Positions 14,419 to 46,001 of a stretch of 55,339 nt of DNA are shown here, one piece after another. Numbering within the stretch: position 1 is the stretch's first letter; each line of letters starts with the position of its first letter. The position numbers and the translations under genes were made by a program. The notes under the pieces were generated by a model, which saw only the letters and a program-made list of their open reading frames with translations, searched no databases and was not told the origin of the DNA. Location: the NCBI GenBank assembly GCA_947589225.1, contig CANQBC010000012.1, positions 1-55,339 of the forward strand, read 5' to 3'. The stretch comes from an uncultured Oscillospiraceae bacterium. GTDB taxonomy: Bacteria; Bacillota; Clostridia; Oscillospirales; Oscillospiraceae.

Positions 14419-15394
14419 TCCCCGCGGTCACTTCCGCCATTGTCTTTTGGTAATTGAGCACCAGTTTGTTGGTGTACATGCCCCGGCGCCAGTAGTGGTA
14501 ATCCTCATCGATCCAAAAGACGCCGTCAAGGCCGGCGCGGGGCTCACGGATCACCACGGTGCCGCCGGCCATGCAGTCGATATTGCCGAGGTTTGTGACG
14601 CTGACGGTCTGGGCGATGCCGTTGTCCCGCAACGTCTCCGCCGCGAGGCCGGCGGGATCCTCCCCCTCCCCTGCCTTGAGAACGCTTTGCAGGAGCCCGT
14701 AGGCGGCCTGGAAGTCCGTGTCGTCACGGGTCAGGAGGAGCTTATCGGACTTGTCATAGACCTGCACCCGGCTCACCAGACTCTCGATGCTGGCGGAGGT
14801 GCTGGCGGTCAGGAGGTTCGAGCCGGTCTGCAAGAGCAGGGTGTACTCCCGGAGCTGGCGGATCCGGACGCAGAGCTTGGCGCCCTCGAACCGGATGTAA
14901 TACTTCTCCCCGGTCTCACGGGAGGCCAGGGTGTAGAGGGTCTGGATGATGTTATAGAGGCTGTTGGCCCCGCCGCTGCTGGGCAGGAAGTTACGCGTGA
15001 GGCGGACGCCCGTGGGGGCGATGTCCCCGCAGGCGATGCCGAAGGACGCCGCCAGGGAGCGCGTCACGGCCTCCGGGGTCTGATCCTTGACCGCCAGGGC
15101 GGTCTCGTTGCGCTTGAGGTACCAGCCCCGGTCGTAGCAGGTGATGGACTTGCTCCAGTCGCCCAGGGCTGAGCTCTCCCGAACCACCCAGCCGTCGAAT
15201 TGGAGGGCATCGTCCACGTAGAATTCCACGTGCATACCCACCTCGCAGGGGATCTCCGGGATGAATGTGCCCAAAATGGGCACCGCCGGCGTCAGGGCCA
15301 GAGTCCGGGCGCACTGCTTAACGTTCCCCGACAGCGTGGCGGTGCCGATGAGCTGTGTGGCGTCCCGGTCGCCGAGGATCACGCGGATGCTCAT
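14411..15394 (-). CDS. Tail hub/baseplate protein, XkdQ/YqbQ-like
   Basis: A 327-residue protein with the hub layout of the XkdQ family: a beta N-terminus, a CYDRGWYLKRNETA segment, then a central QTLYTLASRETGEKYYIRFEG region and a GTVVIREPRAGLDGVFWIDEDYHYW C-terminal strand set. It probably forms the central hub below the tube, together with the LysM protein upstream. The sequence near residues 38-44 (VPILGTF) is encoded by one copy of the 17-bp palindrome at 15267-15283. Confidence 0.85.
   Translation of the reverse strand: MSIRVILGDRDATQLIGTATLSGNVKQCARTLALTPAVPILGTFIPEIPCEVGMHVEFYVDDALQFDGWVVRESSALGDWSKSITCYDRGWYLKRNETALAVKDQTPEAVTRSLAASFGIACGDIAPTGVRLTRNFLPSSGGANSLYNIIQTLYTLASRETGEKYYIRFEGAKLCVRIRQLREYTLLLQTGSNLLTASTSASIESLVSRVQVYDKSDKLLLTRDDTDFQAAYGLLQSVLKAGEGEDPAGLAAETLRDNGIAQTVSVTNLGNIDCMAGGTVVIREPRAGLDGVFWIDEDYHYWRRGMYTNKLVLNYQKTMAEVTAGSE
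15267..15283 (+). repeat. 17-bp palindrome copy 1 (perfect arms)
   Basis: GTGCCCAAAATGGGCAC; perfect 6-bp arms around AAAAT. It lies inside the XkdQ-like coding region, where the minus strand reads Val-Pro-Ile-Leu-Gly-Thr. See the finding on the dispersed palindromes. Confidence 0.85.
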
Positions 15395-16485
15395 CTTCTA
15401 CCTCCGAAATTTCCGGAATTGTTGGGGCTCCAGGTGACGGACAGGTAGCAGGCGGCATTGGCCGTGAAGTTGATGTAGCCCATGGAGGTCGCCGTATGGG
15501 CGCTCCCTGCATAGGTGGCCACGACTTTCTCGGCGTAGACGCCCTTGTCTCCCCACCAATCCGCCGCGATGGCTGTACCCTTTGGCACGATCATGTAGCC
15601 GGTGGCGGTGAAAACCTTGGATCCCAGGGACTTCCCGGCGCGATCCCGGGTCTGGATCCGAATCATGCCGTTCTTCTCGCCGGTGTATATGACGTAGACG
15701 GGGACGTTCTCGACCTTCTTTTCCCCCGGCTTGGCCGCCGGCGTGCCGGCGTCCTCCTGGGCTTTGGCCTCTTCGGCCTGGTTTTGGGCCTTCTCCCGGG
15801 GCGAGGCCGATGCCGGCGCCGGCTGGGTCTGCCGCAGCGTCGTAAACGCCGGGATGGTCAGCACCTGCCCGGGATAGATGAGGTTGGGGTTTGCGATGTT
15901 GTTTGCCGCCGCCAGCCGGTAGGCCAACGACCCGTCGCCGTAGAACTTTTTGCAGATGGACCACAGGGAGTCGCCCTTGACCACCACATAGGTCTGCTGG
16001 GACTCCTCCTGGGTCTCCGTCGCCGCCCGGGGGGCGTTTTTGGAGGCGTCGTCCGCGGTTCGCTCCACCTGGGGGGCGGTGACGTCCCGGTACCCCTTGA
16101 GCTGGATGGTGGCGTAGACGTCCCCGGTGCCGTCCTGCTCGCCGTAGGTGATGGACTCCACCAGCACAGGCTCGTTGACGTCGGTGTCGCTGACCACAAA
16201 GCGCAGCACCTCCGCGGCCTCGGAGAAGGCTTTGAACTTCTTCACGTAGTACCAGGGATCCAACACCGTGCCGGCGTTAATGAAGGGGTATGCCTGGGCC
16301 GGGAACATACACTGGATGCCCTTGTCCAGCAGGGTCTTGAGGCCCGGGAGATTGAGCGTGCCGGTCTCCTGCATATCCAGGGGCTCCACCTTCCGGCCGG
16401 CCTCCAGCTCGTAGCCGGAGGGCGTCACGGGCAGGATCAGCTCCTCGCCGGTTCGAACCGCCTTGAAGATGAAAAGTCTCTTCAT
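15391..16485 (-). CDS. LysM-domain tail protein (XkdP-like, extended)
   Basis: 364 residues. The N-terminal 165 residues are a phage tail domain (LPVTPSGYELEAGRKVE, then YVKKFKAFSEAAEVLRFVVSD). A LysM domain follows at about 183-230 (YVVVKGDSLWSICKKFYGD, then IANPNLIYPGQVLTIP), which binds peptidoglycan and probably positions the tail tip. PBSX XkdP stops near here; this protein adds an Ala/Glu/Lys linker and an SH3-like C-terminal region of about 115 residues ending in a Gly/Arg tail. It overlaps the hub gene by 4 bases. Confidence 0.85.
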   Translation of the reverse strand: MKRLFIFKAVRTGEELILPVTPSGYELEAGRKVEPLDMQETGTLNLPGLKTLLDKGIQCMFPAQAYPFINAGTVLDPWYYVKKFKAFSEAAEVLRFVVSDTDVNEPVLVESITYGEQDGTGDVYATIQLKGYRDVTAPQVERTADDASKNAPRAATETQEESQQTYVVVKGDSLWSICKKFYGDGSLAYRLAAANNIANPNLIYPGQVLTIPAFTTLRQTQPAPASASPREKAQNQAEEAKAQEDAGTPAAKPGEKKVENVPVYVIYTGEKNGMIRIQTRDRAGKSLGSKVFTATGYMIVPKGTAIAADWWGDKGVYAEKVVATYAGSAHTATSMGYINFTANAACYLSVTWSPNNSGNFGGRR

Positions 16486-16488
16486 CGC

Positions 16489-18648
16489 TTACCCCCTCAG
16501 CTGCTGGGCCTGGACCACCTTTTCGGCGATGGCCGAGGCGATGGCGTCCACGTAGTTCTGATCCTGGACGTTGATGGTGTTCCCGGTGACGGTGACAGTG
16601 ACGGCCCCGCCCCCGGCGTCGTAGCTCCGAGCCTCGGCGGCAGTCAGAATCCGCTCATCCTGATGGAGGATGGCGGGGTATCCGTCGTAAGGCACCCGGC
16701 TGAGACCGTCGGCGTGACTGCTCAGATCCCGGCCGAAGAAGTAGTCCGATAAGGTCCAGGGCGTGTCATGCTGCTTGATAATGCCCGGCACCTGTTCGAG
16801 GAATCCGCTCTCAAGGATGGCGTTGGCCATTCCCTTATTGAACTCCTGCCCCATCGTATACCCGGCGTTATAGTACTCGTCCTGGAGCGCTGCGTCAGCG
16901 CGGAGCCTTGAGATCAGGTCGACCTGGCTCTGGAGCTCCAGGTCGTAGCCCTCGCTGGCGTTGTACGCGTCGATGGCGATGGCCTGAGCTTCCGCCAGCA
17001 GGGCCCCCATCTGGGCCCCGGCATCTTCGCTCCCGCTCTCGTACTGGGCGCGGAGCTCGTCGTATTTTCCCGCCATTTCCTGGAGCCTCTGTCCGGCCTC
17101 GGTGAGCTCCCCGTCCTTCATAAAATTCTCGGAGACGCCGCCGCCCATGACGGCGGTGAGGGCGTCCCGGTTGTACTCCTCTTTCAGGTTCTCCAGGGAC
17201 GCCTTCCACTGGCCGATCATGCCGTAAGCGTCCTCCATGGCCTGTCCGTTTACGCCGTCCAGGAACTCCTGCTCCGCCTCGATGCCGGCCTTGCGGGTCT
17301 CGTTGTAGCCCTCGCCCATGGCGGCGTTGAGGTTGGTGCGGGCATCCTCCAGGTTGTCCACCATGGCGTCATAGGTGCCCGCCAGGGTCTCGGAGAGGCC
17401 GCCGAACTCCTGGTTGATGTAGTCCAGGATAGCCGCGGCCGCGTCGACGCCGCCGATCTCGCCCTTGCTGACCATGCCGGCTATCGCGGACTTGTCCGCG
17501 CCGGTGGAGTTGGCCAGGGCCTGGTAGACGTCGATACCCCGCTCGTTAAAGTAGTTGAGGTACTCCTGGGTGGCCTTGTTGGTGACCCGCATCCGGGACA
17601 GTCCGTTGATGAGGGTGCTCACATCGGAGCTATCCAGATTCAGGGCCGCCGTGGCGTCGGACAGGCTCATGAGCACGCTGAATACCTGCTCCGGATCGTA
17701 GGTGTTCAGCAGCTGCTGGGAGTACCCAACGATGTCGTCGTAGCTGTAGTTGGTGACCCCGGCGAATTCCTGCACCCGCCCGAGGTACTCGTCCGCGGCC
17801 TCCTCAGAGCCGAACCGCTGGGCGAAGGCGAGCCTGGTTTGTTCCCGGCTCCCGGCCACCTCGATCCCGGCCGCCAGGGTGTCCTCAATGGCCTGGGTCA
17901 GGGTGTTGTACTGGTCCTGGACGTAGGATTGAAAGGCGTCGTCCTTCCGCTCGAAGATCTCCGTGGCGCTGTTGACGAGCCCGGAGAGGCCCCCCACCAC
18001 GGCCCCGGCCAGCGTCCCCCAGGGCCCCGCCACGGAGCCCATGGCCGCCCCGGAGGCGACGCCGCCCAGAACCCCGCTGATATACGTCCCGGTGTCCTGG
18101 TCGTAGGCGCTGCCGATGTAGGCCCCGGCGGCGTTAGACAAAGACTGGCCCGCCATCTGGATGAGCCCGGAACGAGCAAGAGCGGAGAGCATGGAGGAAC
18201 CATCCCCTCCGCCGGAGGTCGCAGATTGACTAACTTTGCTGCTGGAGGACGAGGATTGGCCATAGGTCCCATTTTCTATTCGTCTCAGGTCATTATCAAG
18301 TTTGTTGTACTCACTTCTGGTCTTCCTGATGGAGCTGGTAACGACATCAAGGGAATTGGACAGTTCTGTGAAGTGTTCCGTAGCCTGTTTAAGCGCATTT
18401 TCCCGTTCTTCCGTTGGTTTCCTGTTAAAGGCGGCTTGGGCGGCGTCCAGTGCCTTTTGCGCTTTGCTGAGCTCCACAGCGTAATTTGCCTGTTGTTTGC
18501 TCAGCGCCTCCAACCGCTGGCCGTAATACCCCGCCTTCTGCTCCAATTCGTCCAGCTCCTTGGAAAAGCGCCCCCCGGAGTCCCGCATTCGCTCGATCTT
18601 CGAGCTGAAGTCCTCCTGAAGGGTCACCGCGATGCTGGCGTTGGGCAT
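16489..18648 (-). CDS. Tail tape measure protein
   Basis: 719 residues, the longest gene of the tail block. Residues 1-110 form a heptad-rich coiled coil (KELDELEQKAGYYGQRLEAL), then a Ser/Gly-rich stretch at about 125-150. A hydrophobic Gly/Ala-rich segment near 185-225 suits membrane insertion, and a long helical region ends in a domain with FGRDLSSHADGLSRVPYDGY, common at the ends of Clostridia tape measures. It starts 2 bases after the end of the frameshifted chaperone product. Tape length sets tail length; this one is shorter than those of many siphophages, as usual for PBSX-type contractile tails. Confidence 0.9.
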   Translation of the reverse strand: MPNASIAVTLQEDFSSKIERMRDSGGRFSKELDELEQKAGYYGQRLEALSKQQANYAVELSKAQKALDAAQAAFNRKPTEERENALKQATEHFTELSNSLDVVTSSIRKTRSEYNKLDNDLRRIENGTYGQSSSSSSKVSQSATSGGGDGSSMLSALARSGLIQMAGQSLSNAAGAYIGSAYDQDTGTYISGVLGGVASGAAMGSVAGPWGTLAGAVVGGLSGLVNSATEIFERKDDAFQSYVQDQYNTLTQAIEDTLAAGIEVAGSREQTRLAFAQRFGSEEAADEYLGRVQEFAGVTNYSYDDIVGYSQQLLNTYDPEQVFSVLMSLSDATAALNLDSSDVSTLINGLSRMRVTNKATQEYLNYFNERGIDVYQALANSTGADKSAIAGMVSKGEIGGVDAAAAILDYINQEFGGLSETLAGTYDAMVDNLEDARTNLNAAMGEGYNETRKAGIEAEQEFLDGVNGQAMEDAYGMIGQWKASLENLKEEYNRDALTAVMGGGVSENFMKDGELTEAGQRLQEMAGKYDELRAQYESGSEDAGAQMGALLAEAQAIAIDAYNASEGYDLELQSQVDLISRLRADAALQDEYYNAGYTMGQEFNKGMANAILESGFLEQVPGIIKQHDTPWTLSDYFFGRDLSSHADGLSRVPYDGYPAILHQDERILTAAEARSYDAGGGAVTVTVTGNTINVQDQNYVDAIASAIAEKVVQAQQLRG

Positions 18649-18650
18649 GA

Positions 18651-19222: not shown

Positions 19223-19223
19223 G

Positions 19224-19652
19224 TCACCGCTCCTCGATATGGTCCAGGTACTTGTGGCCGGTGAAGGTGAAGGGGCAGGTCACCTTGCCCAGCTGCCCGG
19301 CGGCGAAGTCCATGAGGGTGGCGTCGTCGAAACTGCAGTTGTAGAGGGCGACGCGCTCATACCCGTAGGCGTCAGGGTCGGCCAGTTTCATGATGATTGT
19401 GGCCCGGGTGTCCTTCCCGGCCAGCACCGCGTCGGCGTAGTCCCGGAACCGGCTGTACACCTTGTGCATGGTGATGGAGCCGGTGCCCTTGGTGGCCGTG
19501 ACTTTGGAGTCGGTGGCCATCTGGCCGCACATCTCCACGTCCTGCTTGGTGTGGTTCCACTTCGCCTGCCCGGCGCTGGCCTCGCTGATCTTGTACCCGT
19601 CCACCCAGACCTCCCCCCAGGTGCCGGAAATCACTCTTTTCGCGCTGTCCAT
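19224..19652 (-). CDS. Tail tube protein (XkdM-like)
   Basis: 142 residues, the usual size. The pattern starts with SGTWGEVWVDGYKISEA and continues through TKGTGSITMHKVYSRF to DDATLMDFAAGQLGKV and PFTFTGHKYLD, matching XkdM-type inner tubes of contractile tails. It follows the sheath gene by 13 bases. Confidence 0.9.
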   Translation of the reverse strand: MDSAKRVISGTWGEVWVDGYKISEASAGQAKWNHTKQDVEMCGQMATDSKVTATKGTGSITMHKVYSRFRDYADAVLAGKDTRATIIMKLADPDAYGYERVALYNCSFDDATLMDFAAGQLGKVTCPFTFTGHKYLDHIEER

Positions 19653-19665
19653 GTTTTCTACCTCC

Positions 19666-22618: not shown

Positions 22619-22635
22619 GTGCCCAAAATGGACAC
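22619..22635 (+). repeat. 17-bp palindrome copy 2 (one mismatch)
   Basis: GTGCCCAAAATGGACAC; the same sequence as copy 3 in the opposite orientation. It lies between the connector start and the upstream gene. Confidence 0.8.
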
Positions 22636-28067: not shown

Positions 28068-28084
28068 GTGTCCATTTTGGGCAC
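28068..28084 (-). repeat. 17-bp palindrome copy 3 (one mismatch)
   Basis: GTGTCCATTTTGGGCAC on the plus strand. It lies in the short gap between the terminase stop (28087) and the RHH promoter. Confidence 0.8.
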
Positions 28085-32625: not shown

Positions 32626-33378
32626 TTACTTTTTCCGCCGGCGTCTCCGGGAGGCTCCGGCCCTCATGCCGCGCTCCCAGCCGGGGACAAGATACTCGAT
32701 ATATTGATATAGGCCGTACTGCGTCCTCACCTTGGCCTCCTCCAGCGTCGTGGCGCCGCGTGGGACGCATAAGGTCTCATCGTCAGGTACCCGCGTACAC
32801 TCCGGCTTCGGCCGGATAAGGTTTTTTGACCCCGACCAAAGCCGCTGGCCCAATGAGTCCCGCTGCTCCTTGCACATATACTGAGCCAGAGTGCTGTAGT
32901 TTTTCTCCCGGTCAACCCGGAGGGTACGGATCTCCACGTTTTGGGCGTGGCCCCACAGGGAGACGATCTCCTTATAGTCGTTGCCCGTGGCGTTAAGGAC
33001 TACGTGATAGTGCCATCGGCCGTCGCCGTGCTTGTGCTCGATGGTGTACACGTAGCGGAGGCCGCAGCCCCGCCGCGCCCTCGCCCGCCGGAGCCGCCGG
33101 AAGAATCCAGTGATCAGCGCCTGGGCCTCCGCGCGAGATCCCGGCAGATGGCCATCGTCACAGGTCAACGTGACCCAGAGATCCCGGCGGGCAAAGTTGG
33201 CGGCCAGCAGGAGCCGGAGCTTTTGCCAGGCGTATTTGAGGTTGATCCTCTGCTGCGCCTGGGAGCTGAGGCGGGACTTTGCGGCCCGGACCTCCGGGGT
33301 GTCCCGCGGATTGGGGGCCGGATAGATGGTCTCCACCACCAGCGGCCCCGCCTCGATGATTTTGCGATATTTCGCCAC
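32626..33378 (-). CDS. HUH-type rolling-circle replication protein
   Basis: 250 residues. The strand LWVTLTCDDGHLPGS is motif 1-like; HKHGDGRWHYHVVLN carries the HUH-type metal motif (HYH) near residue 113; YSTLAQYMCKE near residue 160 offers the candidate nucleophile Tyr, with Lys four residues on. These are the three motifs of Rep/G2P-like endonucleases. The N-terminus is basic and helical, and the C-terminus ends in RRRRRKK. Its role in a phage that also has DnaB is unclear: nicking, transfer or a captured plasmid gene. Confidence 0.78.
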   Translation of the reverse strand: MAKYRKIIEAGPLVVETIYPAPNPRDTPEVRAAKSRLSSQAQQRINLKYAWQKLRLLLAANFARRDLWVTLTCDDGHLPGSRAEAQALITGFFRRLRRARARRGCGLRYVYTIEHKHGDGRWHYHVVLNATGNDYKEIVSLWGHAQNVEIRTLRVDREKNYSTLAQYMCKEQRDSLGQRLWSGSKNLIRPKPECTRVPDDETLCVPRGATTLEEAKVRTQYGLYQYIEYLVPGWERGMRAGASRRRRRKK

Positions 33379-33429: not shown

Positions 33430-33729
33430 CTATTTTGCTGTGTCACGGTCCACCGCGTCTCTCAGAGCGGTGCCCAAATTGGGCACACCCGCGATGGCGG
33501 AAAGAAACCCGGCAATGTCCGCGATCTGAGCAAGGCTGCCAGCCTTGACCTCGACGGACGCCGCGCCGGCGGAAAAGCGTAACTCCACAGGGCCTTCGCC
33601 GGGATAGAGCCGGAGGAGCGCGGCGAGGATGCCGTCCTGGCGCTGCGCCTCAGAGGAGGCCGGCTGCGCCGGAGGCGGGGAAGCCTGGTCTCCCTCACCT
33701 CCGGGAGCCGGATCAGGCGGCGGTGTCAT
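33430..33729 (-). CDS. Hypothetical phage protein
   Basis: 99 residues. The N-terminal 30 are Pro/Gly/Ala-rich and disordered-looking; the rest has alternating helix and strand (ILAALLRLYPGEGPVEL, SVEVKAGSLAQIADIAGF). Not recognised. One 17-bp palindrome copy lies in its codons near the C-terminus (reading GVPNLGT). Confidence 0.55.
   Translation of the reverse strand: MTPPPDPAPGGEGDQASPPPAQPASSEAQRQDGILAALLRLYPGEGPVELRFSAGAASVEVKAGSLAQIADIAGFLSAIAGVPNLGTALRDAVDRDTAK
33470..33486 (+). repeat. 17-bp palindrome copy 4 (perfect arms, AAATT centre)
   Basis: GTGCCCAAATTGGGCAC. It lies within the coding region of the 33430 gene. Confidence 0.85.
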
Positions 33730-36566: not shown

Positions 36567-37355
36567 TCATTTTTCCGCCTCCTCCGGCCACCTATCTGGC
36601 TTGCCCGTCCGCTCGAACTCGATGACCCACACCCAGGGATTTCCTATGACGAGCCAGGGCAGGCCCCGGTATGTCTTTGTTTCCCGGATATCCTCCCACG
36701 GGTAGCTTTCGTACCTGACCACCTTGCCGTGTTCCCTTACGGGCATCGGCTTGGCATAGAGGCGGTTCCAGAGATCGGAATACTCTCCTCGGACTTCGTC
36801 AAGTATCCCGCAGTCCCCGCCGTATAAGTTGGAGCCATCTTCGTCAAAAGTATCGACACAACACGGATTTCCGTATGTTTCGATGCAATCGCGGCAGTCG
36901 TTGCCTATGTCCATCCCCTCCGCCAGAAGTTCAAAAATCGGGCTTATGGGTGCGAAGAAGCTTTCCTGCAACTTTTCCGCTCTCACACTTTTGACCCGGT
37001 GAAAAATCCGCGCGGCCTCCTTCGGCATATGGATGGAGGGGAACCAGCCCTTCAGCTCAAGGTCGTCGTATGTAGCCCGGTATTCATATCCGAAATTGCT
37101 TTTGTACCACGTCTCCCGGACGTAGAGAATATCGCCGGGCTTGCAGGGTGGCCGTTTGAACTCCTTGCAGTACCATTCGACCACGCTTTGGGGCGGGTTA
37201 TCAGGATTCATCCCCTCGGCCCATCGACCGCCAAAGCAGGCGGCTTTGTACACATCGTTGACCGTGTATTTTATCACCCGCCGCGTCGCCGACTTCCGCT
37301 CCTCCAGGATGGCCCGGACCATGTCGGTGTTGAACAAAATAGGAAGGATCCTCAT
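36567..37355 (-). CDS. ASCH-like phage protein
   Basis: 262 residues from ATG 37355, overlapping the parB stop (ATGA). The opening RILPILFNTDMVRAILEERKS and the CKPGDILYVRETWY phrase mark the phage ASCH/PUA-like group; a WLVIGNPWVWVIEFER strand closes the fold. The middle has cysteines (DCRDCIETYGNPCCVD). ASCH domains probably bind RNA or modified bases; function in phages is not established. Confidence 0.75.
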   Translation of the reverse strand: MRILPILFNTDMVRAILEERKSATRRVIKYTVNDVYKAACFGGRWAEGMNPDNPPQSVVEWYCKEFKRPPCKPGDILYVRETWYKSNFGYEYRATYDDLELKGWFPSIHMPKEAARIFHRVKSVRAEKLQESFFAPISPIFELLAEGMDIGNDCRDCIETYGNPCCVDTFDEDGSNLYGGDCGILDEVRGEYSDLWNRLYAKPMPVREHGKVVRYESYPWEDIRETKTYRGLPWLVIGNPWVWVIEFERTGKPDRWPEEAEK

Positions 37356-38809
37356 TTCCCCACCTCCGGCGTTTTGGGGATTGGGTACCAGCCCACGCAG
37401 GGGGCCTCGATAACGGCCCCGTGGGGGAAAGTCCACCGCTCGCCTGTCCAATCGGCGATCTTCAGCAGGGGGGGCAGGCCGCCGCCCCTGGCAAACAGAG
37501 CCACGGCGGACACAGGGGCAGCAGGATCGCGGCCGGTGATGTATTCGCTGGGCGCCGGCGCCGTCGGGTGCAGATCGTCCGTCACCCCCAGCAGATAATC
37601 GGCGGAGCATTTAAGAACCTTCGCCGCATCAAGGGCCAGGCGCAGGGACTTCGGGGACAGCTGCGGCTCGGCAAAATATCGATGCCACCCCTTGGCAAAA
37701 TCGCCCTCGGCCCATCGCCGCAGGTTTTTGACAGTGATCTGGCCGAACCACTCCCACGGGATGGACGTAGCGTCCGAAAGCCCCGCCGCCTCCGCGGCCC
37801 TCAGGATCCGCCGCGCATTGGAGACGGTGAGACGCTGGGCCTTCGCGGTTCGAGCCTGCTCCTTCTGATCCGCTTTGGCGGTGGCCTCATCCTTCCGGGC
37901 CTTCCGGGCCGTTTTGGCCCTGGCGCACATACGGTCACAGCAATAATAATCGCATTTCGCACCATCTTGGCACTCAAGGCAGCACTTAGATCCGTCGCAG
38001 TTTCTGCTGGGGTGCTTACCGGCAACCAGGACGAAGGTGTCAGCGTGGGTGCAGGTCTTGCCGTCCGGGCATATAAGCGTCGGTGCCCACGTGGCCCCAT
38101 TCTCCGCCTGTACCCGGATCGCCGCCAGGGTGTTGGCGGAGGGGAGCTGTTTAAACTTGCTGATCCGTTGCTGGAGGGCAGCGGGCATCCGGGCCAGCTC
38201 GTAGGCCGGGGCCTCATCCAGATCGCCGGCTTGCCATTTGTCCAAAAGCGTCGGCTCAAGATGATCCTTAATGACCTTAAGCCGCGCAAGCTTGGATTTG
38301 CTGGTCTGCACCGCCTGGGCAACATGATCACGCATCCTGCCGGGGAACTCCACGCCCTCCTCCTTGAGCTGATACAGGAGGGCGGTCACCCGGTCCGCCT
38401 GGTCGGCAAGCTCCGCGCTCGTAAGCTTGCGGGTGCTGGAGTTGGCAAAGATAAGCCTCAGCTCCTGCATGGCCGCAGACTCCTGAGTGGCGTCCACAAT
38501 ACAGGGGATCGCCCGGAGATTGTCCCGGCCGTCCTCCACCAGCATCCGGATCGCCGCCCGTCTGCGGTGGCCGCTGACGATGATGTAATAGCCGGGGTAG
38601 TCCGGATTGGGCCGCACCCTCAAAGGCTGCTGGAGGCCCACCAGCTCGATGTTCTCCGCCAGCCCGTCAAGATCTGAGAGGCTGTAAAAGTTTTTCGGGT
38701 CGTCGCCCAGGCGGGCGATGTCTATGTACTCGATCCTCTCCTGCCCGGTGTCCATTTTGGGCACGGCCTTGAGATACGAGGCCAGGTCAAAGCCTTTTTC
38801 CTCAGCCAT
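37352..38809 (-). CDS. parB: ParB-family partition protein with long Cys-rich C-terminal half
   Basis: 485 residues. Residues about 25-110 form the ParB N-terminal CTPase fold (IEYIDIARLGDDPKNFY, GLQQPLRVRPN, and the key GHRRRAAIRML box). A central HTH region follows (RMRDHVAQAVQTSKSKLARL, about 155-185). The second half is unusual: about eleven cysteines in residues 255-310 (CPDGKTC, NCDGSKCCLECQDG, CDYYCCDRMC), then a basic coiled region and an HTH-like end. It overlaps parA by 8 bases. In known systems ParB loads at parS and ParA segregates the loaded DNA. A 17-bp palindrome lies in its first codons. Confidence 0.85.
   Translation of the reverse strand: MAEEKGFDLASYLKAVPKMDTGQERIEYIDIARLGDDPKNFYSLSDLDGLAENIELVGLQQPLRVRPNPDYPGYYIIVSGHRRRAAIRMLVEDGRDNLRAIPCIVDATQESAAMQELRLIFANSSTRKLTSAELADQADRVTALLYQLKEEGVEFPGRMRDHVAQAVQTSKSKLARLKVIKDHLEPTLLDKWQAGDLDEAPAYELARMPAALQQRISKFKQLPSANTLAAIRVQAENGATWAPTLICPDGKTCTHADTFVLVAGKHPSRNCDGSKCCLECQDGAKCDYYCCDRMCARAKTARKARKDEATAKADQKEQARTAKAQRLTVSNARRILRAAEAAGLSDATSIPWEWFGQITVKNLRRWAEGDFAKGWHRYFAEPQLSPKSLRLALDAAKVLKCSADYLLGVTDDLHPTAPAPSEYITGRDPAAPVSAVALFARGGGLPPLLKIADWTGERWTFPHGAVIEAPCVGWYPIPKTPEVGK
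38748..38764 (-). repeat. 17-bp palindrome copy 5, inside parB (one mismatch)
   Basis: GTGTCCATTTTGGGCAC on the plus strand, identical to copy 3. The minus strand here encodes AVPKMDT near residue 16-22 of ParB. Its position beside parAB supports a partition-site reading. Confidence 0.85.
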
Positions 38810-39572
38810 CGGATGCGCCCCCTCTCAAGAGCTGCCGGACAAAGGCCCGGTAGTCCACCGCCGCGGCGCTCCGGGGGCTTGACTCGATGAGAGGTCGCTG
38901 GGCGTAGGTCATGTCGTCCACTTTGTCGGTGCGGCGAATGTGATGGAGCACAGGGAGATCATAGAGCAGCAGGGTTCTCTCCGCTTGTATGGTACGGGCG
39001 CATGGGTACCACATCGTAGGCAGGCAGCCCAGGAGCCGGAGCGCCGGGTTGATGGCCCTCATGTTGTCGATCTGGCACAGGAGATTGGTCATCCCCCGCA
39101 GGGAGAAAGCGTCCAGTTTTATGGGGATCAACACCTCGTTTGCCGCCAGCAGCGCCGCGGCACTGGCCGCGGAAAAGGCCGGCGGGCAGTCGATAAGGCA
39201 AAAGTCGTATTGGCCCAGACGTTCAAACCCGCTTACCAGCTCTTGCAGATGCGAGACTCGGACGTCGCTTGTCTCCACCTTGGTCAAGTCAAGGTCCATA
39301 AGCTCCTCACTGCCGGGGAGGAGGTCAACGTTGTCGAGCTTAGTCGGCACGACGTACCGCTTGATGCGGATGTCCTCATCCCGGAGCAGATCCGCCAGGG
39401 TCCCCGACTGCAAGTCGTCATCGGCGAGAAACTCCGTGGCATTGCATTGACTGTCCGCGTCGACCACGAGCACCCTTTTCTCGTGGTCGCGGGCCAGGAT
39501 CGCCGCCACGTTGACCGTCGTGGTGGTCTTGGCGACCCCGCCCTTAAGATTCATAAGTGCGATTGTTCTCAT
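38802..39572 (-). CDS. parA: ParA-family partition ATPase
   Basis: 256 residues. The deviant Walker A KGGVAKTTTTVN (residues about 10-20), Walker A' VLVVDADSQCN and Walker B FCLIDCPPA are all present. There is no N-terminal HTH, so this is the Soj-like short type. It uses ATP-dependent nonspecific DNA binding to move ParB-loaded DNA. The parA-parB pair in a prophage suggests that it can, or once could, persist as an extrachromosomal element. Confidence 0.9.
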   Translation of the reverse strand: MRTIALMNLKGGVAKTTTTVNVAAILARDHEKRVLVVDADSQCNATEFLADDDLQSGTLADLLRDEDIRIKRYVVPTKLDNVDLLPGSEELMDLDLTKVETSDVRVSHLQELVSGFERLGQYDFCLIDCPPAFSAASAAALLAANEVLIPIKLDAFSLRGMTNLLCQIDNMRAINPALRLLGCLPTMWYPCARTIQAERTLLLYDLPVLHHIRRTDKVDDMTYAQRPLIESSPRSAAAVDYRAFVRQLLRGGASDG

Positions 39573-39954: not shown

Positions 39955-39970
39955 CGTTGACCGCACCCCC

Positions 39971-41347
39971 TCAAAACGGTAGATTGGGGTCATTGCCCAC
40001 AATGGGGTACATGGAGACCTGATCCATGGGAGCCTTGGGCTTAGCAGACCTCGCCGCCGCCCACGCATTGTTGACCTGCTCCCCCACGGGATTTTGGGCA
40101 AGGGCGAGGGACTGGTGAGAGCCGTCAAAGTCGAGGAGGAGCCTCACCTTGGAGCCGTCCTTGTTTTTTGACACCTTGAGGGTTCGTTGGGACTGGTTAT
40201 CGTCCAGATCCGAGGGGTACAGGAGCATGGCCACGTCCGCGTCGTTCTCGATCTGGCCGCTCTCCTTAAAGCTCCACATATCCGGCGGCGCCGCCTTGCC
40301 CTTGACCTTTTCCGGGCGCGTCAGCTGCGCCAGCTCCACCACCGTCACGTTGTGGGTCTGCGCCATGGTATGGAGGCCCATGGAGACGTTGGTGATCCGC
40401 TCCCGGATGTCCCGGCCTGGAGCCGCGACGATCTGCAGGTAATCAACAAAGATCACGTCGTAGTGATAGGCGAGCGTAAGCGCCTGTATGTCCTGTACGG
40501 AGAGGTTGGCCGCGTGGATCACCTCAAAGCTGCCCTTGTAATCGCCGATCTGGATGCCCAGATCCACGGCCCGCTGGAGATCCTCCTTAGACTCGGTGCC
40601 GCGCTTGATGTCGCGGAAGTCGATTTGGGCAAACCGGGACAGGAGGCGCTCGCCCACCTTGTCCTCGTTGGTCTCCAGCGAGAAAAAGCCGACCTTATAG
40701 GTCTGCGCCATATGCAGGGCGAACTGGATTGCCAGCAGGGTCTTTCCGGCGGAGGCATACCCGCCGATGACCACCACGTCGCCGCGGCGGACGTTAAGCG
40801 CCTCATCCAGAGCATAGAGGCCAAAATCGACCCGCTCCGGCGGCGGGAGATGCTCCCGCTTGCGCTGCAGGTACCGGGAGATCAGCTCCTCGGCCCTCAC
40901 GGGGCGCACAGACTGGCGGCTCACAAGCCGCTGGGCCATCCTGTCCACGATGGGGGCCGCCTCCCGGAGGCTCGTGGCCTCCCGCAGCTCCAGCGCCATC
41001 ACCTGCAGACGCCAGAGGGCGTTGTACTCCAAGAGGAGGTCGCCGTAGTAAGCAAGATCCGTGGCCGGGCGTTTGAGGGCCTCATCAATGGCGGCCGCGT
41101 AGTCCGGCCCGGCCTCCAGCTGCAGGGTCACCCGGTCCACCGGCTTGCCGGCAAAATGGAGGCGCAGGATGGCGTCGTACAGCTGATGAGCGCCCTCATC
41201 GTCAAAGAGATCCAGCGGGAGCCGTGCCGCCGTCTCGCCGACCAGCTCCGGGGACATCAGGAGTCCGCCGATCACGGCGAGCTGCACATCCGCGAGGCTT
41301 ACATTGTCCAGGCCGGAGCGCACGTAAGCACGTTCGAGGTCGCTCAT
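39971..41347 (-). CDS. Replicative DNA helicase DnaB-like
   Basis: 458 residues. N-terminal helical domain (about 1-110) with PELVGETAARLPLDLF; helicase domain with Walker A GGYASAGKTLLAIQF (about 195), FFSLETNEDKVGERLL, Walker B VIFVDYLQIV (about 305) and QLTRPEKVKG (about 345). This is a phage DnaB of the family that replaces or supplements the host helicase. It overlaps the initiator gene by 4 bases, the lambda O/P-like order of initiator then helicase/loader. Confidence 0.92.
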   Translation of the reverse strand: MSDLERAYVRSGLDNVSLADVQLAVIGGLLMSPELVGETAARLPLDLFDDEGAHQLYDAILRLHFAGKPVDRVTLQLEAGPDYAAAIDEALKRPATDLAYYGDLLLEYNALWRLQVMALELREATSLREAAPIVDRMAQRLVSRQSVRPVRAEELISRYLQRKREHLPPPERVDFGLYALDEALNVRRGDVVVIGGYASAGKTLLAIQFALHMAQTYKVGFFSLETNEDKVGERLLSRFAQIDFRDIKRGTESKEDLQRAVDLGIQIGDYKGSFEVIHAANLSVQDIQALTLAYHYDVIFVDYLQIVAAPGRDIRERITNVSMGLHTMAQTHNVTVVELAQLTRPEKVKGKAAPPDMWSFKESGQIENDADVAMLLYPSDLDDNQSQRTLKVSKNKDGSKVRLLLDFDGSHQSLALAQNPVGEQVNNAWAAARSAKPKAPMDQVSMYPIVGNDPNLPF

Positions 41348-42141: not shown

Positions 42142-42300
42142 TTACCCGCCTCCCCTCTTGCAAAATCTCCGCGATGGTGATATAATACTCTTTGTTCTCA
42201 TGGCTTGCGCCATGCGCCCCGGATCCGGTGTTACCCTCACCGGCCGGGGTGTTTTTTTGTTCTCATAGCGGCTCATGGCCTGCGCCTCGCGCCCCGTCAT
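42142..42300 (-). CDS. Small hypothetical protein
   Basis: 52 residues from ATG 42300, which overlaps the previous TGA (ATGA). Basic: SRYENKKTPRPVRV, ending in FCKRGGG. It ends directly before the initiator start. Function unknown. Confidence 0.5.
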   Translation of the reverse strand: MTGREAQAMSRYENKKTPRPVRVTPDPGRMAQAMRTKSIISPSRRFCKRGGG

Positions 42301-42503
42301 GACTGACTGCCGCGCATAAAGGCGATAAACGCCCTGCGGGGGATCCTCACTCGGTGCCCTGAGACGGAGACCGGGAAACCCAGCCGCTCCGGGCACTGCC
42401 TGGCCGCCACCCGTATGTAGTGGGGGTTGCACCGCAGAACCTTTGCCGCCACGTCCGAGGTAATGATCTCGGAGTCCATAGCCTCGATGTCTTCTAGTGT
42501 CAT
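42297..42503 (-). CDS. Excisionase-like HTH protein
   Basis: 68 residues from ATG 42503. It has SEIITSDVAAKVLRCNPHYIRVAARQCPERLGF, then a wing RVRIPRRAFIAFM: a MerR/Xis-type winged HTH. Could be the excisionase partner of the integrase or an early regulator. Coupled to the next gene by ATGA. Confidence 0.72.
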   Translation of the reverse strand: MTLEDIEAMDSEIITSDVAAKVLRCNPHYIRVAARQCPERLGFPVSVSGHRVRIPRRAFIAFMRGSQS

Positions 42504-42507
42504 TGCG

Positions 42508-42960
42508 CTACTCCTTTCTTTTGGCAAACCGCATCTCAAAATATGCCTTTATCGTCTTTGACCCCATGTCCAGGATCTCCTCGAAGATCTCCGACTCCTT
42601 GTCGTCGATTCTCCCGTCGGCCACCATCCGCAGGAGCTTCCGGTCGAACCGGCCGTCCACCAGATCCAGAACACAGGATATGTAATCCGCCGCGGCCTCC
42701 GGCAGGGGCCGCCCGATCCGGATGTCCGGAATGAGCTCGTCCAACGCCGATGTGTGTTCCCGGAGGTACACCCCCGTCAGCCACGGCGCCGACAGGGCCG
42801 TGCCGAGCATATCCAGGGCGTCCAGGGGGCAGGTGCGCGCGCCGCTCTCCCAGGCCCGCACCGAATCCGGCGAGTACCCGGTTCGCTCCGCCAGTGCTTC
42901 CTGCGTCAAACCGCTACCGATCCGCGCCCTTTGTATGGCATTTCCAGGTTTTCTGTCCAT
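42508..42960 (-). CDS. XRE-family transcriptional regulator
   Basis: 150 residues. The N-terminal HTH is typical: AIQRARIGSGLTQEALAERTGYSPDSVRAWESG. The remaining 90 residues are helical and unrecognised. It lies in the leftward early operon below the lysogeny switch. Confidence 0.85.
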   Translation of the reverse strand: MDRKPGNAIQRARIGSGLTQEALAERTGYSPDSVRAWESGARTCPLDALDMLGTALSAPWLTGVYLREHTSALDELIPDIRIGRPLPEAAADYISCVLDLVDGRFDRKLLRMVADGRIDDKESEIFEEILDMGSKTIKAYFEMRFAKRKE

Positions 42961-43133
42961 GGTGTCAGTCCCTCCGTTGGGGTATAATCAATTCTGGGGT
43001 TCTGCGGGTTTGAGCAGTCCCAGGCGGACCAAATCAGCCAGATACAGGTCGTGGACGGCACTGGTCTCAAGCTGTTGTCCGTCCTCGCCAGATCGATCAT
43101 CCTGGCCTTAGTCACCGCCCAGCGGTACTTCAT
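42906..43133 (-). CDS. Small hypothetical protein, frame uncertain
   Basis: 75 residues from ATG 43133 with AAAGGAG 8 bases upstream. The first 18 residues (KYRWAVTKARMIDLAR) look real; after that another frame gives a more protein-like helix (LETSAVHDLYLADLVRLGLL) ending at 42988, without its own start. Either a frameshift mutation or a shifted product is possible. It overlaps the next gene by 55 bases if read straight. Confidence 0.4.
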   Translation of the reverse strand: MKYRWAVTKARMIDLARTDNSLRPVPSTTCIWLIWSAWDCSNPQNPRIDYTPTEGLTPWTENLEMPYKGRGSVAV

Positions 43134-43147
43134 CGTGGTCACTCCTT

Positions 43148-43360
43148 TCAAGCGCTGTCTTCGGCCTGGTCGCCAGTGAATAGATCGTCGATTGTACACC
43201 CCAGGCTTTTCGCCAATTTGGGCAGGTCGCGCGTCATCGGAAGCGAAATCTCCGCCTCCCAATTCGCTACGGCCGAACGGATTACGCCCATGCGGAAGGC
43301 AAGCTGCTCTTGGCTAAGGCCGGCCGACTGTCTCAGGGATTTGATGTTCATTAACTGCAT
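43148..43360 (-). CDS. Cro-like XRE repressor
   Basis: 70 residues from ATG 43360 (AGGAGG 8 bases upstream). Single HTH domain: NIKSLRQSAGLSQEQLAFRMGV, then SAVANWEAEISLP. As the first leftward gene after the divergent operators, it takes the Cro position. Confidence 0.85.
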   Translation of the reverse strand: MQLMNIKSLRQSAGLSQEQLAFRMGVIRSAVANWEAEISLPMTRDLPKLAKSLGCTIDDLFTGDQAEDSA

Positions 43361-43412
43361 CTCTACCACCTCCTGTCATTCAATTTGGCAATGTAAACTT
43401 TTCTTACAAGCC

Positions 43413-43435
43413 TATTGTCATAGGCTATGACAATA
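43413..43435. promoter_or_regulatory. Lysogeny operator O1
   Basis: Perfect 10-bp arms TATTGTCATA and TATGACAATA around GGC. Core TGTCA-N7-TGACA (43416-43432). It covers the predicted start of the leftward promoter. Confidence 0.88.
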
Positions 43436-43464
43436 CTTATAACACATAGTGGGATGTTTGTCAA
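43436..43464 (-). promoter_or_regulatory. Leftward early promoter (cro side)
   Basis: Minus strand TTGACA (43464-43459) and TATAAG (43441-43436), 17 apart. The -35 overlaps operator O2; O1 begins at the -10 edge. Confidence 0.82.
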
Positions 43465-43475
43465 TACTTATGACA
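43459..43475. promoter_or_regulatory. Lysogeny operator O2
   Basis: TGTCA-ATACTTA-TGACA, the same half-sites and spacing as O1, overlapping the -35 of the leftward promoter. Confidence 0.82.
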
Positions 43476-43494
43476 AAAAAATATTTACGTCCTC

Positions 43495-43523
43495 TTGATG
43501 CGTCATTTTCTATGACATATAAT
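43495..43523 (+). promoter_or_regulatory. Repressor promoter with operator O3 as its spacer
   Basis: TTGATG (43495-43500) and TATAAT (43518-43523) are 17 apart. The spacer 43501-43517 is exactly operator O3 (CGTCA-TTTTCTA-TGACA, one half-site base changed), which suggests autorepression at high repressor level. Confidence 0.8.
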
Positions 43524-43540
43524 TTTGATGAGGTGACACC

Positions 43541-44245
43541 ATGAACAGGATCAAGCAACTACGTCATTTTTTTGGTTATACACAGGAAAAGCTCGCAAAG
43601 ATGCTCAATGTAGGCCGCTCTACTGTAGCGATGTGGGAGACTTCATCACAGGAGCCAGATTACGAAACGTTAAAAAGGCTTTCGCAGATATTCGATATTC
43701 CTCCCGATTTTGTCTGTGGTGAAGGAATCTTTGAAAACTGGGACAAGATAGTTGAATACTATGAGCCGCTTTCTTTTTTCATCATAAATAGAATTCCCTC
43801 ATCTTTAGAGATGCCGTCATTTTGCGAAGACAAGGTCCTGATTGCCTGGTTGGACACGCGGCTTTATTTTGAACCCGACGAGCTGCAACTCGCACGATGG
43901 TTCAATTTCGCTGTAGCCGATATCCAGTTCACTCCATGCGAGGGACCACACGGGAAGGATGTAAAAGACGTAACTATACGGTTTACCCCTGAGTTTCAAG
44001 CATTGATTGATGCTGACAACAGGCGCGAGGCTGGTGGGCATGATATACACCCATTATCCCAAATCGAACGTGACGTGCTGACAGCAATGCGCCGATATAC
44101 ACCCGATCTCTACTTTCCGGAGCTCATCTCCTTATACTCCGTTGCCTCTGACCGTGACCGGGCGTTAGTCCGGCAGATACTGTCAGCATACGAAGAAAAA
44201 AATAGCCCCGCTCTCCCTGTGGACGCAGGCGAAAGCGTGGGCTAA
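43541..44245 (+). CDS. CI-like phage repressor (XRE family)
   Basis: 234 residues. HTH at the N-terminus (RIKQLRHFFGYTQEKLAKMLNVGRSTVAMWET). The remaining 170 residues do not show an S24/LexA peptidase (no Ser-Lys pattern), so induction would not be by RecA-stimulated self-cleavage. Its gene is divergent from the Cro-like gene across three operators, so it is the likely lysogeny repressor. Codon use is less GC-rich than the late genes. Confidence 0.8.
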   Translation: MNRIKQLRHFFGYTQEKLAKMLNVGRSTVAMWETSSQEPDYETLKRLSQIFDIPPDFVCGEGIFENWDKIVEYYEPLSFFIINRIPSSLEMPSFCEDKVLIAWLDTRLYFEPDELQLARWFNFAVADIQFTPCEGPHGKDVKDVTIRFTPEFQALIDADNRREAGGHDIHPLSQIERDVLTAMRRYTPDLYFPELISLYSVASDRDRALVRQILSAYEEKNSPALPVDAGESVG

Positions 44246-44261
44246 AAAACATAAAAAATAA

Positions 44262-44278
44262 GTGCCCAAAATGGGCAC
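44262..44278 (+). repeat. 17-bp palindrome copy 6 (perfect)
   Basis: GTGCCCAAAATGGGCAC, also flanked by A and T so the dyad extends to 19 bp. Intergenic, 16 bases before the exonuclease start. Confidence 0.88.
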
Positions 44279-44294
44279 TGGGAGAAGGGACACA

Positions 44295-45419
44295 ATGGGT
44301 AGATGTGTAAACTGTGGGAAGAAGGGTCTGTTTTTGCGTCTGAGCTGGCGCCATCTGTGCAACGAGTGTGAGGCCCAGCGGGCCCGCGAGGAGCGCGAAC
44401 GGAAGCGCGAGGAGGAGGCCGCCAAAATCATGGCGGAGTACGAATCTTCCAAAGCTTTTGAGACTGCCTGCACCGCCTACCGCGACGCCCTTGCCGGGGA
44501 GAACGCGGAAGCAATACCGGAGGTCGAGGTTGCTATGGCGGCCTGCGACGCCTTCCGCCCCGCGCTGAACGCGTTCCTGGCCTCCCCAAACGCGACGGAC
44601 ATCCTGGCAAAACATTTTGAGGGGCAGAGCATCGTCTACAAACTGCCGGACTTGGGGTATGTGGACATCAAGCGCATGGGCGGTGACCAAGTGAAGGTGT
44701 CCTTTGACAGTCAGGTCGAACGGGTCGAACGGCTCCGCCGGGAGTATGCCGAGACGATTGAAAACACGGCGGTCTTCCGGGAGAAAAAGGCCGCGCTCCA
44801 GTTTGTACCGGTCACGCTGACGGAGGGCGCCGAGCCGCAGCACTCAGACGTCCTGCTTCCGATTCAGGGGAAGAACATCACACAGTCGACCCCGGTCTCC
44901 CGCCTCAGCAACTTCATGGTCATCGACACGGAGACCACCGGCCTGTCGCCCACGGAGAACGAGATCGTGCAGCTCACCGCCATCAACTTTGTCAACCTTG
45001 TACCCACTCGGGCCTTTTCAACCTACGTCAGGCCGCGCGGGGAGATGGGGGAGAAGGCAATGCAAATCAACGGCATAACGCCGGACATGGTGAAGGACGC
45101 GCCGTACATCGAGCAGGTTCTCCCGTCGTTTTCGGAATTTATCGGAACGAAGGTTCCGCTTGTCGGGCACAATATCTCCTTTGATCTGAATTTTTTGCAA
45201 GCGTCCGGCCTTCCCGCCACTGCGTACTACAGACGCACGGTGTACGACACCCTTGACCTTTCAAAAAAGGTGTACGCCAGCCCATCCAATAAACTTACAT
45301 ACCTCTGTCGGCACACGCTCCACGTGATCCGCGACGACGCCCACGACGCCGTCAGCGACGCTCTAGCTACAGGGGAGCTCTTCCTGACTATCTGCCGGAG
45401 GAGAATAGGCGAATTGTGA
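44295..45419 (+). CDS. DnaQ-like 3'-5' exonuclease with zinc-ribbon N-terminus
   Basis: 374 residues from ATG 44295. An N-terminal zinc site (CVNCGKKG ... CNECEAQ) is followed by a basic coiled helix. The exonuclease domain (about 215-370) has Exo I DTETTGL, Exo II GHNISFDLNFL and Exo III HDAVSDALA, the DEDDh set. It degrades or proofreads DNA or RNA. Its place between repressor and integrase suggests an accessory (moron-like or defence/counter-defence) role, not replication; that is inference. Confidence 0.85.
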   Translation: MGRCVNCGKKGLFLRLSWRHLCNECEAQRAREERERKREEEAAKIMAEYESSKAFETACTAYRDALAGENAEAIPEVEVAMAACDAFRPALNAFLASPNATDILAKHFEGQSIVYKLPDLGYVDIKRMGGDQVKVSFDSQVERVERLRREYAETIENTAVFREKKAALQFVPVTLTEGAEPQHSDVLLPIQGKNITQSTPVSRLSNFMVIDTETTGLSPTENEIVQLTAINFVNLVPTRAFSTYVRPRGEMGEKAMQINGITPDMVKDAPYIEQVLPSFSEFIGTKVPLVGHNISFDLNFLQASGLPATAYYRRTVYDTLDLSKKVYASPSNKLTYLCRHTLHVIRDDAHDAVSDALATGELFLTICRRRIGEL

Positions 45420-45423
45420 TGGT

Positions 45424-45440
45424 GCGCCCAAAATGGGCAC
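45424..45440 (+). repeat. 17-bp palindrome copy 7 (one mismatch)
   Basis: GCGCCCAAAATGGGCAC, five bases after the exonuclease stop. Confidence 0.8.
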
Positions 45441-45488
45441 AACAGGGGGCGATGAGCAATAGCGGCTATAGGTCAAATCTCCAGCCGG

Positions 45489-45818
45489 GTGGAAGCCCTG
45501 CTGGGCCTCACCGTCACCGGCGACCGGAATATATACATTTCGGCCACGAATATCGCGCATATGACCAGCTCCCACCCCGCCGATTATGCCAAATACGGCG
45601 GTCAGATACAGACCATCCTGGCGGCCCCCGATTATGTGGGGCAGAACCCGAAGGACGGCTCCATCGAGTACGTCAAGGAGTACCGGGTGGACAATGAGTT
45701 TGTGAAAGTAGCCGTCCGGGTCTCTGGCAGCGGCCGGTACTATGCCCGGTCCCTGTACATACTGAATAACAACCGGGTGAAGAACTACATAGCCAAGGGC
45801 ACACTGAAAAAGACTTGA
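45489..45818 (+). CDS. PBECR-like phage nuclease-fold protein
   Basis: 109 residues from GTG 45489, although the frame is open from 45452 and a ribosome-site-like GGGGGCG leads to an ATG in the wrong frame, so the start is uncertain or frameshifted. RNIYISATNIAHMTSSHPADY, then ILAAPDYVGQNPKDGSIEY and VKVAVRVSGSGRYYARSLYIL match the pattern of Barnase/EndoU/ColicinE5/RelE-like (PBECR) phage nuclease domains. RNase activity is inferred only. Its stop codon overlaps the -35 box of the next promoter. Confidence 0.6.
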   Translation: MEALLGLTVTGDRNIYISATNIAHMTSSHPADYAKYGGQIQTILAAPDYVGQNPKDGSIEYVKEYRVDNEFVKVAVRVSGSGRYYARSLYILNNNRVKNYIAKGTLKKT

Positions 45819-45842
45819 CATAAATCGAATACGGTGTATAAT
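45815..45842 (+). promoter_or_regulatory. Strong sigma-A promoter of the structured RNA
   Basis: Consensus TTGACA (45815-45820) and consensus TATAAT (45837-45842), 16 apart. Confidence 0.87.
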
Positions 45843-45848
45843 GAAGCT

Positions 45849-45983
45849 GAGAAATCCATACTATGGAGTATGCGGAAATAGAGGACGGAACGGGCAGCCG
45901 TCGCCCTCGTTGGAGATGTGGGAGTGTCGCCCCACCTATTTCCGTTGCTTGCAAAGCGGACAGCTTCGGCTGTCCGCTTTTTT
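45849..45983 (+). ncRNA. Predicted structured phage RNA, about 135 nt
   Basis: From the promoter start to the terminator there is no supported ORF. Paired elements are visible: TCCAT/ATGGA hairpin (45855-45867); a long-range 9-bp helix CGGAAATAG (45873-45881) with CTATTTCCG (45936-45944); inside it GACGG/CCGTC (45884-45902, competing with GGGC/GCCC) and GTGGG/CCCAC (45918-45935). The end is a 9-bp stem with TTCG loop and six T (45956-45983). I do not recognise the class. It precedes the integrase gene by 36 bases. Confidence 0.72.
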
Positions 45984-45984
45984 C

Positions 45985-46001
45985 GTGCCCATTTTGGGCA
46001 C
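45985..46001 (-). repeat. 17-bp palindrome copy 8 (perfect)
   Basis: GTGCCCATTTTGGGCAC directly after the RNA terminator and 18 bases before the integrase start. Confidence 0.88.

Follow-up and report, generated by a model that had tools for sequence, protein, structure and literature searches.

Eight scattered palindromes in an integrated Oscillospiraceae prophage as probable parS-type sites of its own ParB

Why should a prophage that sits in a chromosome carry its own ParA and ParB, together with eight scattered copies of one 17-bp palindrome, one of which lies inside parB itself? This question is raised by contig CANQBC010000012.1 (assembly GCA_947589225.1) of an uncultured Oscillospiraceae bacterium, analysed here over a stretch of 55,339 bp, referred to as the window. 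An earlier reading of the same DNA, made from its letters alone (the sequence-only reading), had proposed that the palindromes are sites of the prophage's ParB. Linkage of the motif to ParB, its behaviour in ParB-less relatives, its rarity on the chromosome and, in a few cases, a joint change of helix and motif support this proposal. We give a probability of roughly 0.87 to the palindromes being parS-type loading sites of the prophage's own ParB, a predicted cytidine triphosphate (CTP) clamp, and this ParB is very probably the protein that binds them. Taken together, the genes and sites would most likely form a ParABS system with dispersed parS that also regulates parB and the integrase gene int, as KorB does on RK2.

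All eight palindromes listed by the sequence-only reading were found again (Table 1), far beyond chance expectation. A search of the whole window at up to 3 mismatches gave 13 strand-wise rows, which correspond to the eight sites and one weak match (8044, 3 mismatches), while shuffled windows gave a mean of 0.20 and a maximum of 2; together with the whole-genome counts, these shuffles rule out a chance origin. The degenerate consensus covering the palindromes is GTGYCCRNNNYGGRCAC. Their supposed confinement to this prophage stood within the window, where only the weak match at 8044 lies outside, but not beyond it, as a second prophage of the same genome (C19) has eight as well. Likewise, the three sites described as genic (15267, 33470 and 38748) are indeed coding, whereas one of the five described as intergenic is uncertain, because 22619 falls in the first codons of the open reading frame (ORF) 22274-22645. 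The site just after terL is kept in four of the eight near prophages (window, C19, G002 and G019). It recurs at the same place in three terminase fragments of 5-7 kb (L254-L256); each contains a single site and no parB within its length, which decides nothing on the binder.

In the window's genome (2.41 Mb), the degenerate motif occurs exactly at 16 places, namely seven in the window prophage (the 45424 site, with one mismatch, was left out of this count), eight in C19 and one elsewhere. With a single exact match outside the two prophages, host chromosomal sites were rejected as an explanation, and the motif is, as anticipated, not common on the host chromosome. C19 is a related prophage whose ParA and ParB are 78% and 66% identical to those of the window; between the HTH150 regulator and the terminase the two are collinear, and their site sequences differ slightly. 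Comparison of 60 related genomes, the window's own included, revealed 16, 10, 6, 9, 11, 5 and 4 motif copies (61 in total) in the seven genomes with a close ParB (E of 1e-100 or better), and 23 copies altogether in the 53 genomes without one, seven of them in G022. Besides the window prophage and C19, six further prophages of the genus have orthologous ParAB; on their contigs, exact copies numbered nine in G002, six in G010, nine in G016 (over two contigs), eleven in G019, five in G025 and three in G026. Each of these eight near prophages has parA next to parB. When all perfect palindromes made of 6-bp arms around a 5-bp centre were counted without bias, this arm proved to be the most repeated one in seven of eight contigs, the exception being G016, whose prophage is divided over two contigs.

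The link to ParB was also found among viral sequences. Since a single-protein ParB query against viral contigs gave no match, an alignment served as the query; a scan of genome contigs for ParB added one true relative (L057) and one short unrelated match. Of the 52 IMG/VR loci chosen by ParB alone (34-58% identity), 44 contained the motif, with 103 sites over 0.75 Mb, whereas the reversed-motif control was absent from all of them. Whole records, comprising 28 of these loci and two phage records, had the motif in 28 of 30 cases and the control in none. A close example is Flavonifractor phage Cormatin (ON453905, L252), whose ParB, annotated as 'hypothetical protein', is 46% identical over 84% of the query and adjoined by ParA, and in which the motif occurs four times, once inside parB. 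In the reverse direction, a scan of IMG/VR with one exact motif form gave at least 120 stretches, which were compared with 200 control loci from two related palindromes. A parB homologue was present in 33 of the 120 motif stretches listed versus 4 of the 200 controls and a parA homologue in 36 versus 5, while terminase (12 versus 15) and portal (8 versus 14) were not enriched; the P-values of this comparison are nominal, because several loci are on one contig. Among 22 of the 120 listed loci that were read whole, picked by us mainly for contig size, 13 had a ParB by profile.

Relatives of the window's terminase point in the same direction. Of 12 such records, L258, L260 and L264 encode a terminase with 66-73% identity to that of the window and a Rep with 37-60%, and neither a profile nor PF02195 found a ParB in the whole records, which contain no site in 41, 22 and 41 kb, respectively. 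L264 has a ParA-like gene, yet neither ParB nor sites. These three thus disfavour Rep, ParA and terminase as the reason for the motif. Among the others, L262 has ParB and three sites, while L257, L259, L261, L263 and L265 have neither. Silence of PF02195 in the 12 records to which it was applied means little, as this profile scores the ParB family barely above its cut-off. Overall, the expectation that the sites should track parAB was borne out over the 60 genomes, the 52 IMG/VR loci and the whole records.

The site within parB, which the sequence-only reading had placed at 38748 in the codons for VPKMDT, was confirmed and proved to be the most widely kept one. It is present in all eight near prophages around codons 16-21, six times exact to the pattern and twice with one mismatch. 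Removal of four redundant entries from 60 ParB ORFs left 56, of which 40 have an exact, in-frame site and 52 have one with no more than two mismatches, while synonymous resampling of those 52 ORFs expects 2.3 exact sites; for L070, L071, L073 and L091, the site positions were supplied manually. The encoded peptide, V-(P/S)-x-x-(D/G/N)-(T/A), corresponds to residues 17-22, one of two stretches of the predicted model with a predicted local distance difference test (pLDDT) score under 50 (model mean 88.5). Because exact sites far exceed the synonymous expectation and the peptide region has low pLDDT, the constraint as judged from codon choice acts on the DNA, in agreement with the sequence-only reading. 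Moreover, 19 of 33 ParB-bearing loci among the matches listed have a site from 30 nt before to 252 nt after the 5' edge of parB, and these include ParB clades quite distant from that of the window.

The predicted model of ParB displays the ParB/KorB/Noc clamp fold with a CTPase domain and a helix-turn-helix (HTH) domain, and KorB structures were the first PDB matches in Foldseek. The CTP motifs (S79-R83, N123 and R127) are invariant in all 45 aligned ParBs, so that CTP binding is predicted. One alignment of these ParBs (A3) excluded six translations with internal stops and does not include L102, L104 and L118. As in ParABS systems, ParA stands next to ParB and a cognate palindrome is linked to the operon. 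Residue 176, located in the putative recognition helix (model helix 171-183), is R in 38 of the 45 ParBs, N in three, K in one and E in three, namely L112, L113 and L114. Near these, a variant site is seen, GTGTCGGNNNCCGACAC, of which L112 has two perfect copies (one in parB), L113 one and L114 a single imperfect one. By contrast, ParBs beside the canonical motif have R at position 176 in 32 of 32 readable cases. R176E goes with a compensatory base-pair change in the sites in two ParBs and less clearly in the third; as the cases are few and in part share their descent, this is strong but not final evidence. A scan for the G6/C12 variant gave at least 120 stretches, most of them without ParB; a ParB-type ORF is present in three of those listed, where position 176 is E, E and L; one of the three is L113's own contig, and two are divergent. 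Shared variants of their own were seen in L085 (three copies of GTGTCCAA(A/G)TCTGACAC) and L095 (three 18-bp copies); searching for the variant with 18-bp spacing yielded 96 stretches, and ParB was present in two of the 80 loci examined among them. In general, sites on one contig are more alike than chance, and covariation is seen at the paired positions 4/14 and 7/11 but not at 8/10.

In regard to placement, the near-even spacing noted by the sequence-only reading turned out to be weak and not robust, its 5.4-kb run being a post-hoc choice. Within prophage limits set by us (12000-47300), the eight sites placed on a circle gave P = 0.041 for the sum of squared gaps and 0.027 for the largest gap, compared with 0.086 and 0.061 on a line. 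For 15 phages combined, a set that includes G110 (no ParB found) and a few one-mismatch sites, the values were 0.056 and 0.059; given the former, an even spacing as a functional ruler was rejected. A second pattern concerns the integrase, as three of the eight window sites fall within 1.8 kb upstream of it. Of 37 sites in four near prophages, 14 fall into the 5-kb stretch upstream of int, against an expectation of 4.8 (P = 1e-4); of 13 other records with int and known sites, 6 show a site no farther than 2 kb 5' of the int domain, against 2.3 expected (P = 0.013). Both values are post hoc, the cut-offs of 5 kb and 2 kb having been chosen after the cluster was noticed, and some of these phages are related. 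For the near prophages, we placed the int starts and the limits by hand. A tyrosine integrase was found in 18 of the 30 whole records, and 13 of these 18 were counted, leaving out G063, whose sites equal those of G084, G082, which has none, and G068, G069 and G081, for which the list of sites was incomplete.

This cluster bears on an alternative in which ParB does bind the sites, mainly as a KorB-like long-range silencer or regulator of lysogeny and integration, partition being secondary or lost. It would fit the enrichment upstream of int, which is post hoc, with site 8 only 18 bp before int, as well as the site near the parB 5' end in most members, the match to KorB and the fact that these phages integrate. 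Against it speak the invariable neighbourhood of parA and parB in the near prophages and a link of parA to the motif as strong as that of parB; besides, 7 of the 13 records lack a site in the 2 kb 5' of the int domain, and at least one site lies inside a structural gene. A KorB-type global repressor would have its sites near the promoters of the genes that it controls, which the post-hoc enrichment upstream of int may reflect. We regard a mainly regulatory role as possible, though doubtful.

Explanations without ParB fare worse. If the sites were operators or stoperators of the XRE regulator HTH150 or of CI/Cro repressors, the presence of HTH150 in all eight near prophages, its occurrence, interrupted by an in-frame stop, in the site-bearing but parAB-less G022:C72, and a slight enrichment near the motif (HTH150 in 9 of the 120 listed stretches versus 2 of 200, Cro in 7 versus 1) would be accounted for. 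However, HTH150 is 30% identical to its Cormatin counterpart while the motif is unchanged, it occurs together with parB in only 3 of the 120 motif loci listed, and the motif changes along with the ParB helix. CI is 33-62% identical (in C19 for the HTH part only) or was not found in the seven other near prophage contigs, and since it is thus not conserved across prophages sharing the motif, CI operators or stoperators are unlikely, as the sequence-only reading had also judged; this whole explanation seems very improbable to us. Even less likely are replication sequences bound by the HUH-type Rep: although Rep is enriched near the motif (21 of the 120 listed versus 1 of 200) and the 33470 site lies about 90 bp 5' of rep, the three Rep-bearing, ParB-less terminase relatives have no sites, and the site kept most widely lies in parB rather than at rep. 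RNA hairpins or terminators, suggested by T or A runs beside some sites and by 44262 scoring as a minus-strand terminator, can practically be dismissed. Several sites lie inside genes; among 36 in-parB sites, 9 have C4-A14 on the coding strand, a combination that does not pair in RNA, and 7 have T-G; and terminator-like matches in 28000-47300 equal those of shuffles (18 versus 17.2). As binders, Rep, ParA, TerL and the second ParB-like protein (30288-31811) were rejected, since their presence and absence do not fit.

Several observations count against parS-type sites of ParB nonetheless. Integration makes a classical plasmid partition unnecessary, and Table 2 of PMC10197239 gives no chromosome conformation capture (3C) signal for Cormatin as a prophage, which disfavours a strong compaction by ParB in lysogens. 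The universal presence of HTH150 in the near prophages and the enrichment of Rep near the motif weigh on this side, too. Eight of the 52 ParB loci lack the exact motif; four of them have a variant common to their own parB site or a relative, the others near matches only, and L081 has nothing within one mismatch. Conversely, 9 of the 22 picked records have no ParB profile match, eight of these with one or two sites and G110 with five exact ones; in G110, two profiles run on the whole record and a third run on the stretches that were read detected no ParB. E176 was seen in few ParBs, and L112-L114 resemble each other, so that the co-change may be one event. Finally, G022:C72 has six sites without parAB and looks like a deletion remnant, or like an element relying on another phage's ParB. 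The expected absence of sites from parB-less relatives thus held for L258, L260 and L264, but not for G022:C72.

As sites of ParB, the palindromes suggest the following mechanism. We infer that a ParB dimer would recognise the 17-bp palindrome, load with the use of CTP and spread from several scattered single sites, paired with the ParA encoded just before parB. The site in the 5' end of parB probably permits ParB to autoregulate its operon, because this ParA, with its Walker motif right at the start, lacks an N-terminal DNA-binding domain, and the sites crowded 5' of int suggest that ParB controls the integration module. The main use would likely be to handle the phage DNA in its extrachromosomal state, following infection or excision, together with KorB-like local silencing. 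Partition outside the chromosome, autoregulation and KorB-like silencing at int are mutually compatible.

Table 1. Palindromes and main genes of the window prophage
Feature	Position	Strand	Remarks
Palindrome site 1	15267..15283	+	GTGCCCAAAATGGGCAC; within tail-protein gene (phrog_400), coding VPILGT
Palindrome site 2	22619..22635	+	First codons of, or just 5' of, head-tail adaptor ORF 22274-22645
Palindrome site 3	28068..28084	-	Directly 3' of terL stop codon
Palindrome site 4	33470..33486	+	About 90 bp 5' of rep; within 99-aa ORF without family match, coding VPNLGT
Palindrome site 5	38748..38764	-	Within parB codons 16-21 (VPKMDT); kept in most ParB relatives
Palindrome site 6	44262..44278	+	Between cI stop and likely exonuclease gene start
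Palindrome site 7	45424..45440	+	One mismatch; just past exonuclease stop
Palindrome site 8	45985..46001	-	18 bp 5' of likely integrase start codon (46020)
Replication protein, HUH type	32626..33378	-	PF23343 REP_ORF2-G2P
parB	37352..38809	-	485 aa; N-terminal ParB CTPase fold, HTH, Cys-rich segment, C-terminal beta strands
parA	38802..39572	-	256 aa, PF13614; deviant Walker A near N-terminus; 8-nt overlap with parB
DnaB-like helicase	39971..41347	-	
HTH150, XRE-type regulator	42508..42960	-	Weighed as rival binder
CI-like repressor	43541..44245	+	HTH_3
Tyrosine integrase	45918..47162	+	Longest ORF; likely start 46020, by eye
tRNA-Ser(GCT)	47310..47401	-	Likely attachment site

The remaining gene content displays an integrating phage with a plasmid-like replication set, comprising the HUH-type Rep, DnaB, ParAB and the integrase. 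The int end of the window prophage adjoins tRNA-Ser and host genes, and the G019 prophage copy is flanked by tRNA-Ser and a 60-bp copy of the tRNA 3' part, a second copy of which was not found in the window. The terminase gene is adjoined by a second ParB-like gene (30288-31811) of the nuclease/methyltransferase-associated kind with a 15-bp tandem repeat inside (30381-30500), and a gene just 3' of parB (36567-37373) appears by eye to be of PUA/ASCH type, with no Pfam match. The host stretches 2733-8780 and 47310-55195 are neighbours in opposite arrangement in the related genomes G001 and G002, so that the window contig may contain an inversion or a chimeric join. In the other elements, the 13.8-kb contig G022:C72 (L059) encodes an integrase, the regulator with the in-frame stop and tail genes beside its six motif copies, and the 53-kb viral record G110:C1 (L266, L267) has one site between an S24-type repressor and an HsdR-N-type gene. 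A different dispersed 20-bp palindrome (CCTTCCCCT..AGGGGAAGG) was seen in the ParB-bearing phages L081 (four copies, 8824-21012) and L115 (three copies, 5908-13912).

Altogether, what seems new is the combination of scattered probable parS in integrating phages with one site in parB and others at int. Such dispersed parS are not described in the titles and abstract openings of open PMC articles that we found, a set that leaves subscription papers and preprints outside. A 2025 survey of the ParB-CTPase fold covers phages and, in the parts consulted, describes domain fusions and binding of nucleoside triphosphates, not the motif of the window (PMC12704722). With our analysis, a parS can be predicted for a phage ParB family that is widespread and is matched best by a PHROG of 'unknown function', and the analysis shows that the in-parB site constrains ParB's own residues. 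The natural R-to-E changes in the helix, together with the base-pair change, make ParB-parS specificity directly testable. Tentatively, a large family of integrating temperate phages might have turned ParABS into a prophage control device, in which ParB clamps, loaded at scattered sites that include one in the coding sequence of ParB itself and others at the integrase, would couple the handling and partition of excised DNA to the integration decision. How an integrating phage benefits from a partition system is the question raised, for which Cormatin in Flavonifractor plautii offers a tractable model. Cormatin is described as an inducible chromosomal prophage with a virome signal in vitro and in vivo (PMC10197239), though no PF00589 tyrosine integrase was found in its record.

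Compared to known systems, chromosomal ParB-parS and Noc with its binding sites (NBS) share the CTPase-HTH fold and, for ParB, the ParA-type partner, while the window ParB has a long C-terminal extension. The chromosomal parS and NBS are likewise single palindromic sites, with a palindrome different from the window motif. Mycobacteriophage L5 has many dispersed stoperators for one phage protein, which are asymmetric repressor sites, whereas the window sites are palindromic and linked to ParB, not to a repressor. The sequence-only reading had pointed to phage N15, a prophage maintained as a linear plasmid with IR sites dispersed over its genome. Its SopAB is likewise a phage ParAB-type system with several single palindromic sites, the centromere consisting of four natural inverted repeats, IR1-IR4 (PMC7205306). 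The comparison holds for this layout, but not for the plasmid state, as the window phage is chromosomally integrated next to tRNA-Ser and encodes an integrase, a plasmid phase being possible, and has one site inside parB; the site sequence and the ParB family also differ. KorB, which acts as a silencer (PMC11790492), belongs with its operator OB to RK2, a plasmid and not a phage, and this operator differs from the window motif. Finally, cluster A mycobacteriophages such as RedRock and Miko are also temperate with parA, parB and parS, where parABS stands in place of the integration cassette and the parS of RedRock consists of two loci of eight 8-bp direct repeats (PMC7157519). The window prophage has parAB and an integrase together, and its sites are scattered palindromes; since parABS replaces the integration cassette in cluster A, the partition system beside an integrase is the unusual point of this locus.

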